Positions 52,307 through 53,281 of a stretch of DNA of 64,000 nucleotides are shown here, in pieces. Positions within the stretch are counted from its first letter, which is position 1. Every line of letters starts with the position of its first letter. The translations under genes were made by a program, and so were the position numbers. Source of the stretch: Alphaproteobacteria bacterium (GTDB lineage: Bacteria > Pseudomonadota > Alphaproteobacteria > Rs-D84). A model generated the notes under the pieces. The model had not been told where the DNA came from and did no database searches. It saw only the letters and a program-made list of their open reading frames with translations. The stretch is taken from NCBI GenBank assembly GCA_017503725.1, contig JAFVSL010000008.1, positions 1 through 64,000 on the forward strand, in the 5' to 3' direction.

Positions 52307-52335
52307 TTGCGGAATAATAAACAATTGGCTATAAT
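52307..52335 (+). promoter_or_regulatory. Promoter of the structured RNA
   Basis: TTGCGG (52307-52312) and TATAAT (52330-52335) separated by exactly 17 bp. Transcription should begin near 52342. Confidence 0.65.
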
Positions 52336-52341
52336 ATATAT

Positions 52342-52550
52342 GTCACGATGATTTTATCGTGATGAGGCGTAGAAACCTCACTCAAGCGATAGAGTATAAA
52401 CCTGTGTTGAAAAACATTGTGGGGCGTATTCTGTTGAAAGACTCCTGATATTTGCGTCAGGAGGGTTGCGAATATATTGAATAAGCACGCAATACTTGAG
52501 ATTGTTTCTAACCTCCTGACCACTCGTGAAAACGTGTGGTTTTTGTTTTT
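52342..52550 (+). ncRNA. Structured RNA or attenuating leader of unknown family
   Basis: About 209 nt from a good promoter to an intrinsic terminator (52519-52551), with no coding frame of note. It holds a 5' hairpin (TCACGAT/ATCGTGA), small hairpins GAGG/CCTC and ACTC/GAGT, then three related arms. CTCCTGA (52442-52448) can pair with TCAGGAG, or the overlapping GTCAGGAGGGTT (52456-52467) can pair with AACCTCCTGAC (52510-52520). The two pairings exclude each other, which is typical of a switch. The terminator lies 29 bp before the next coding gene. It may be a separate sRNA or a regulated leader. It does not match 6S, tmRNA, 4.5S or RNase P signatures that I know. Confidence 0.55.
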
Positions 52551-52579: not shown

Positions 52580-52996
52580 ATGAAAAAACTTTTAATATTA
52601 ACCGCGGTTGGTGCGATACTCGCCGCGCCCGCGTTGGCGGTGCAAAAATGCGTGGCGTTGGATGAAAATAGTGGGGTGGTTACCTATACTGCTAATGAGC
52701 AAGAAGTTGAGTGGACTGCGACTTTGATGACAGGAGCAAAGATTTCGGGGATTGGCATATGTAATAGCACCGAAGGTATGGCGAACGAAATGTCTTATTC
52801 ACTTAAGATGACTAGTGAAGATGGAAATAGCTATTGTTGGTGTAAAATGATTAGTCCTGTTGTATCATATTGGGTGTTTGCAGAGAATATGTATAATGAT
52901 GCTTCTTGTTTTTTCTATTGTTCTGATACCTGTGCACGTTACATTCAGCAAAACTCAGACTTTCGCGCCATGATGTATTCGTTCCTTACAGATTAA
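52580..52996 (+). CDS. Secreted cysteine-rich protein (138 aa)
   Basis: The first 20 residues are a clear Sec signal peptide ending ALA-V. The mature part has nine or so cysteines in its second half (SYCWCKM, then CFFYCSDTCARYI), a spacing that suggests disulfide or metal binding. The ATG at 52580 follows AAGGAG; upstream frames lack a ribosome site. It lies just downstream of the structured RNA terminator and 12 bp before another secreted Cys protein. No family was recognised. Confidence 0.68.
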   Translation: MKKLLILTAVGAILAAPALAVQKCVALDENSGVVTYTANEQEVEWTATLMTGAKISGIGICNSTEGMANEMSYSLKMTSEDGNSYCWCKMISPVVSYWVFAENMYNDASCFFYCSDTCARYIQQNSDFRAMMYSFLTD

Positions 52997-53008: not shown

Positions 53009-53281
53009 ATGAAACGAACCGTATTTTTGTTTGTGTTTGCGCCCGTGGTGGTGTTTGCTGCCGAGCCGTCCACCAGTTGTCCGTCGGGCTATATCGCCAT
53101 TGATGCGCCGTACATCACAATTGCGACAGAATGCCCCAGTGGTACGGTATCGGTCGGCACGGCGGAATCGTGTTTGGTGGAAAGTCCCGCGGGGGATTGC
53201 ATAATGTACGCGCCCGCGGGCGTATCGTATACAGACGCACCCGGCACGTATGAATTTACAGAGGCCTGTGCAATGGAATAA
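53009..53281 (+). CDS. Small secreted cysteine-containing protein (90 aa)
   Basis: Signal peptide 1-18 (ending VFA-A), then a short beta-rich domain with five Cys (CPSGY, ECPSGT, SCLVE, DCIMYAPAG, EAC) and repeated SGT/PAG turns. ATG 53009 follows AAAGGAG. It is the second gene of the unit that starts at 52580 and ends at a terminator. It may be a surface or periplasmic structural protein. Function unknown. Confidence 0.65.
   Translation: MKRTVFLFVFAPVVVFAAEPSTSCPSGYIAIDAPYITIATECPSGTVSVGTAESCLVESPAGDCIMYAPAGVSYTDAPGTYEFTEACAME

Follow-up and report, generated by a model that had tools for sequence, protein, structure and literature searches.

The window, a stretch of 64,000 nt covering positions 1-64,000 of the forward strand of contig JAFVSL010000008.1 (assembly GCA_017503725.1; Alphaproteobacteria bacterium, Rs-D84), carries at positions 52336-52550 one copy of a structured leader RNA family, hereafter the window family. 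The RNA lies between a sigma-70-type promoter and two small genes (Table 1), and boxes similar to this promoter are found upstream of most copies in the same genome. The promoter with its 17-nt spacer, the 209-nt non-coding stretch, the U-tract terminator and the gap of 29 bp before the first gene had all been described in a sequence-only reading of this DNA and are present as described. The same reading considered the first gene product to be a secreted Cys-rich protein; its start is indeed signal-peptide-like, yet its richness in Cys is fair but mild (5% of residues). Neither this protein (at E 0.1) nor its neighbor matched Pfam, and the second gene is likely on the same transcript as the first.

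Table 1. Features of the leader RNA and its surroundings, in window coordinates.
Feature	Position	Strand	Remarks
Sigma-70-type promoter, TTGCGG-17-TATAAT	52307-52335	+	TTGCGG 52307-52312; TATAAT 52330-52335
5' hairpin, GTCACGAT(gattt)ATCGTGAT	52342-52363	+	7/7 pairs changed on both sides, 97.4% of cells paired, 105 copies
Hairpin H2, GAGG-cgTAGAAA-CCTC	52364-52379	+	a1 (TAGAAAC, 52370-52376) in loop
b1, CTCAAG	52381-52386	+	Partner is the loop of hairpin E (b')
Variable hairpin domain, b1 to strand 1	52387-52441	+	Greatest length variation among copies; hairpin in the MFE structure
Strand 1, CTCCTGA	52442-52448	+	Pairs with strand 2; 1:2 hairpin 6/7 pairs changed on both sides
Strand 2, GTCAGGAGG	52456-52464	+	5' arm of P1 in C4-like fold; 2:3 covariation
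Hairpin D (P2 of C4-like fold), loop GAATATATTGAATAA	52466-52492	+	Conserved
Hairpin E (P3 of C4-like fold)	52489-52505	+	Loop is b' (CTTGAG, 52495-52500); stem 98.6% paired
a', GTTTCTA	52504-52510	+	Partner is a1
Strand 3, CCTCCTGAC	52512-52520	+	3' arm of P1; overlaps terminator arm
Intrinsic terminator, ACCACTCG...CGTGTGGT-TTTT	52519-52545	+	5/5 pairs changed on both sides
Gene for 138-aa protein, 7 Cys	52580-52996	+	Signal-peptide-like start; putatively controlled by leader; starts 29 bp after 52550
Second small gene	53009-53281	+	Signal-peptide-like start; 12 bp downstream of first gene

The RNA folds with -73.8 kcal/mol (z = -6.3), a stability equaled by none of 200 shuffles. At its cut-offs, Rfam recognizes nothing in the window except tRNAs, and no Rfam riboswitch appears up to E 10, in agreement with the earlier statement that no known riboswitch signature was recognized. 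Below the cut-offs, however, the best match, sRNA-Xcc1 (RF02221; 31.2 bits where 53 are required; E 0.0013, scan of 421 nt), reflects a genuine similarity. 6S RNA, which the sequence-only reading had named as a family to check, is absent from the list up to E 10. Two other candidates were rejected by eye. A conserved leader peptide after GGAGG is contradicted by a frame that stops early in some copies. The inverted repeat of integron attC sites has an AAC..GTT motif, whereas the window repeat is GTT..AAC.

The locus belongs to a multi-copy family. A blastn search found 24 places in the genome itself, and the covariance model built from 20 of them (R1) found 36 places at E ≤ 0.1 in these 998 kb, two being the ends of one contig. 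A covariance search in relatives, as had been proposed for this element, was made with R1 and gave matches in every one of the 30 genomes sampled from the genus (between 2 and 50 places, median 9.5) and in 128 of the 142 sampled from the order; one relative harbors 53 places. Across a class-wide sample, 8 of 240 genomes match, of which three are the genus itself, leaving 5 of 237 for other genera. A DNA pattern derived from the core occurs in at least 116 stretches of named genomes among the matches listed, which belong to Candidatus Enterousia and unnamed Alphaproteobacteria, many of them from rumen, sheep, goat, deer or chicken according to their titles. Divergent copies of the genome itself (L071, L074 and L035) precede tiny helix-turn-helix proteins instead of secreted ones, the protein downstream of L035 being assigned to HTH_31 (Pfam). 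One contig (L352) has at its ends an 89-bp direct terminal repeat that is a family copy. A mobile circle was considered for it; its housekeeping-like genes (named by eye) together with the 89-bp repeat make an assembly effect likelier, and the repeat is probably due to assembly breakage at family copies.

Covariation was read from a structure-aware alignment of 100 chosen loci, which contributed 105 matches (E ≤ 1e-9). The two ends of a single contig (L033 and L034) are in neither this alignment nor the one underlying the model, which also omits L035, whose 5' part was misplaced by MAFFT, and the divergent L032. Of the 29 pairs in the stored structure, 26 show changes on both sides, and 97.9% of its cells are paired, figures that favor these pairs as the alignment was fitted to them; none of 500 shuffles was as high by any measure. 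The alternative stem of strands 2 and 3 (GGAGG:CCTCC), which is absent from the model used for the alignment, has changes on both sides in 5 of its 8 pairs, with 93.5% of cells paired. Its covariation score (0.238 vs 0.074 in shuffles) was reached by 0 of 500 shuffles. Strands 1, 2 and 3 carry matching letters, AAC in 31 copies, TGA in 21, TGC in 9 and others more rarely. Since both the 1:2 hairpin (CTCC:GGAG) and the 2:3 stem covary, with the three strands sharing letters across types, both mutually exclusive helices are selected. The claim that GTCAGGAGG can pair either with CTCCTGA or with CCTCCTGAC is thus borne out over the 105 copies.

The same 105 copies back by covariation the 5' hairpin, the two-part helix a1:a'/b1:b' and the terminator, and the stem of hairpin E shows changes of the type ACAAT:ATTGT to CTATA:TATAG. 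G-U pairs are kept in the family helices, and at least four U stand at the 3' end of 88 of 105 copies. An ORF of at least 45 aa begins within 124 nt of the leader in 92 of 105 copies (median gap 27 nt) and was not found within this distance in the other 13; its start is signal-peptide-like in 67 of the 92 by a crude rule applied without a control set. As far as sequence comparison goes, the structures and the homology are well supported. The a1:a' and b1:b' helices, the multi-copy nature of the family and the relation to sRNA-Xcc1 and C4 had all gone unremarked in the earlier reading.

The similarity to sRNA-Xcc1 holds in both directions. RF02221 scores 36.6 bits, also under the cut-off of 53, on the copy at the equivalent place in another genus. 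Conversely, R1, although trained on window-family copies only, matches four of six viral Xcc1-type loci (L356-L359; 28.6-33.5 bits, E 1e-7 to 3e-6) and, at E ≤ 0.01, three (L109, L114 and L116) of 30 genomic sRNA-Xcc1 loci taken from 299 Pseudomonadota genomes (L109-L138), that is 7 of 36 in total. When the 150 nt upstream of these genomic matches were read by eye, an H2-like hairpin with a1 and also a b1 were seen, and many RF02221 loci have both this upstream part and a b2 at the start of the next gene. Indeed, the a'/b' of Xcc1 loci fits the upstream part of its own locus better than that of others (22.3 vs 17.4), and likewise its own ribosome binding site (RBS; 17.5 vs 13.4; 0/2000 permutations as good in the 23 of 30 loci with a start codon found). 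Both families thus share the P1/P2/P3 fold, the D core (GAATA...GAATAAGCC, which in sRNA-Xcc1-type elements flanks an inserted hairpin at the place of hairpin D), a P3 loop that contains b', an a' downstream of P3, and H2 with a1 and b1 upstream. They differ in that sRNA-Xcc1 loci carry b2, frequently together with a2, where a phage-type regulator has its RBS and show, in the loci read, no U-tract terminator after P1, whereas the window family has the terminator and lacks a2 and b2. The latter also has a constant, covarying 1:2 hairpin beside P1, a statistic available for the window family alone. Judged from these sequences and predicted folds, the window family is homologous to sRNA-Xcc1 with the same fold, and the Rfam entry, which has no clan in Rfam 15, appears to describe just the 3' half of a longer, C4-like leader.

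This homology bears on whether the element acts as RNA at all. A structured DNA or repeat element, such as a recombination hot spot or mobile element, would account for the many copies and for a recombinant-looking one (L020:9606-9837), in which a1 (TCAGAAC) and a' (GTAGTCA) mismatch as if they came from two different copies. We consider this explanation highly improbable: the element has a fixed orientation with respect to promoter, terminator and gene, it keeps G-U pairs, and its homolog sRNA-Xcc1 is transcribed, having been mapped by RACE as an 88-nt RNA (PMC2996969).

The order of elements in the window family (5' hairpin, a1, b1, a hairpin, and finally the P1/P2/P3 fold, whose P3 has b' in its loop and is followed by a') is also that of C4 RNA of phages P1 and P7 (RF01695; c4-a1b1 motif), an antisense RNA of the kind by which phages silence regulators of their own. 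In the annotated phage P1 record, a1, b1, C4, a2 and b2 follow one another, and by eye this phage has a hairpin at the place equivalent to the window 5' hairpin. The window family thus presents the C4 features of a P1-P2-P3 fold with b' loop and a', and of an a1/b1 part upstream on the same transcript. It differs from C4 in having no RF01695 score (no match in the window up to E 10, and none in its own genome), no a2/b2 before the gene, a terminator at that place, many copies per genome and no antirepressor downstream. As R1 matches 0 of 12 C4 loci, the link to C4 is made by anatomy and by a phage-borne member, not by score. C4 loci found with RF01695 have an a'/b' that fits their own RBS (22.5 vs 15.0 for cross pairings; 0/2000 permutations as good in the 10 of 12 loci with a start codon found). 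Since a'/b' fits the own upstream part and the own RBS in both, sRNA-Xcc1 works, on this evidence, like C4. Published accounts (PMC2996969, PMC12444791, PMC2864571, PMC5320573, PMC12197685) place sRNA-Xcc1 upstream of symE in integron cassettes and describe C4 RNA as being cut by RNase P and as binding near the RBS of its target. A comparable multiplication is provided by the C4-derived Group 1 small RNAs of Acinetobacter baumannii, which according to PMC5320573 have many chromosomal copies, a C4 structure and a variable a' region; they differ in scoring with the C4 motif and in being discussed as trans-acting, the window family consisting of leaders with their own code partner and a terminator before genes. 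The literature searched on sRNA-Xcc1, C4 antisense RNA and Enterousia gave no account of the window family or of a link between C4 and sRNA-Xcc1, a link that a 2011 RNA Biology paper on sRNA-Xcc1 may state. From its predicted anatomy, the window family is a relative of the phage-type C4 antisense scaffold.

The phage-borne member is found on an IMG/VR phage contig (L348:5461-5633; R1 53 bits), has the exact D core and lies upstream of a gene for a Rha protein (PF09669, E 2e-30). Both a2 and b2 are present at the Rha RBS (CCTGTTAAGAAAAGGATATAAGTTATG; a' GTTCTTAA, b' CTTATATC), no U-tract follows P1, and the layout is fully that of C4. This locus likely connects the C4-type control of phages with the leaders of bacteria. 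In another alphaproteobacterium, a b2-like stretch was seen by eye next to the start codon (L366), whereas L353, also before a Rha gene, has no good b2 and L349-L351 are without b2 and resemble the bacterial type. In two contigs of the virus collection (L349:12214-13164 and L351:962-1912), the RNA precedes a secreted-looking 316-aa protein, which suggests that leader and gene were moved together by phage. None of 50,697 phage records matched the RNA in a blastn search.

The a/b helices are both well kept and highly variable. All seven positions of a1:a' are Watson-Crick in 93 of 105 copies, as against a mean of 5.3 and a maximum of 14 in shuffles, and the b1:b' helix reaches at least 6 bp in 101 of the 104 copies that have hairpin E, with 100 distinct loops. 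Among 19 close copies of the genome itself, sites differ by 60% in b' and 46-48% in a1/a', as against 29% in the 5' hairpin, 23% in the D core, 6-10% in H2, 1-4% in strands 1-3 and 0-2% in stem E. Moreover, in 28 of 31 copies of this genome the complete a-and-b code matches the partner within the copy, and it matches the partner of another copy in 12 of 930 pairings. As pairing under drift should not single out the a/b helices, we infer from a simple comparison of these percentages that the code is selected for distinct, copy-private addresses. It could alternatively be proposed that one shared protein or ligand binds H2 and the D loop and sets termination everywhere, the a/b helices being ordinary drifting helices with compensation; D core and H2 are indeed far less variable than a/b, and many copies precede signal-peptide-like genes. 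Such a regulon switch seems rather unlikely to us, since the neighboring helices (stem E, strands 1 and 2) barely drift and a/b variation is far greater, and since the sRNA-Xcc1 relatives employ a/b as an address code. Within the variable domain, a subset of this genome's copies (L020, L023, L024, L028, L029 and L031) has in common an additional hairpin, GGCGCGCC..GGCGTGTTTTTT, which comes with a U-run and resembles an internal terminator, and Xcc1 loci show GCGGTATTTTTGTGCC near this position.

The search for targets of a'/b' gave a different picture from that in C4 and sRNA-Xcc1. At the RBS of the 91 window-family copies with a start codon found, own pairings score 11.70 and cross pairings 11.66, with 430 of 1000 permutations as good, and an earlier, looser test on 73 copies gave 12.73 and 12.83, respectively. 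An a2/b2 at the RBS was found only in the phage-borne L348, not in the tested bacterial copies. Searched over 220 kb of the own genome, candidate trans targets amounted to 89 matches, mostly the leaders themselves, the remainder being scattered and chance-like, and there was no convincing copy of a1+b1 elsewhere in these 220 kb. These results weigh on the possibility that the copies are C4-like trans-acting small RNAs, a terminated or RNase P-cut antisense RNA silencing another mRNA through a'/b' with weak read-through. The sub-threshold sRNA-Xcc1 score, the C4 anatomy and the RBS complementarity in both relatives speak for it. RNase P favors RCC-type sequences, and RCC(A/G) follows P1 in most window-family copies. 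With no RBS target, no convincing second a1+b1 in the 220 kb and codes that fit only their own a1/b1, we consider this explanation unlikely. Translational control, in which strand 3 (CCUCC), when free of strand 2, would mask the Shine-Dalgarno sequence of the gene on read-through transcripts, is less probable still. Strand 3 fits its own Shine-Dalgarno sequence with 14.0 (permuted 13.2; 0/1000 as good), a fit that is not controlled for relatedness; copies of a subtype share both elements, and any CCUCC pairs with any Shine-Dalgarno sequence.

We favor, as reasonably probable, the view that a C4-type antisense scaffold was multiplied in Alphaproteobacteria of the Enterousia group and converted into an individually addressed attenuator leader. 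The attenuator part of the earlier proposal of attenuator or riboswitch logic is supported by the sequence evidence, in which alternative helices covary and one of them overlaps the terminator: the 3' strand of P1 and the 5' arm of the terminator share at least 3 nt in 97 of 105 copies. The riboswitch part is unsupported. What varies most is an RNA-RNA code specific to each copy, and the RNA is laid out like a C4-type antisense RNA. In trp-type attenuators, the pairings 1:2, 2:3 and 3:terminator compete. The window family shares this competition and differs in having no conserved leader peptide and an extra a/b helix that would set the ground state. The fold combining the long-range a/b helix with 1:2 is the MFE structure in 96 of 104 copies, and lies lower in energy than the P1 fold in 100 of the 104 (median -11.3 kcal/mol).

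In the proposed attenuator, the ground state would be OFF: the a1b1:a'b' and 1:2 helices would form, P1 would be blocked, the terminator would fold and most transcripts would stop. In the ON state, P1 (2:3) would form and rob the terminator of its base, and the gene would be read. As the code is private to each copy, the trigger may be recognized copy by copy, for instance through a processed C4-like RNA or the nascent RNA, and the conserved D loop could be a binding site for a factor common to the copies. When a1/b1 was masked in silico, the MFE structure kept 1:2 in 86 of 104 copies and had P1 in 12, and a trans RNA on a1/b1 alone would therefore be no obvious trigger. Candidate triggers are co-transcriptional timing, the binding of a factor and a cut between strands 1 and 2. 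Since the overlap of P1 and terminator typically spans 3-5 nt, with G-U or A-U pairs among them, and does not exceed 2 nt in 8 of 105 copies, partial termination is possible in both folds. Switching and its trigger are thus model elements, put forward from predicted folds.

These results join the orphan Rfam family sRNA-Xcc1 to C4-type antisense control and reveal a large set of orthogonal RNA-RNA codes that occurs naturally on a single scaffold in gut bacteria with reduced genomes. We tentatively suggest, as a possibility short of probable, that a phage immunity RNA was domesticated into a switchboard for an arsenal of proteins, with up to about 50 copies per genome and an orthogonal address for each secreted-protein gene, so that individual genes could be under feedback or be expressed exclusively with no need of protein regulators. 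If the attenuator reading is true, it would explain the one-by-one control of dozens of mostly secreted proteins of unknown function, and the family would offer a ready library for synthetic orthogonal switches.
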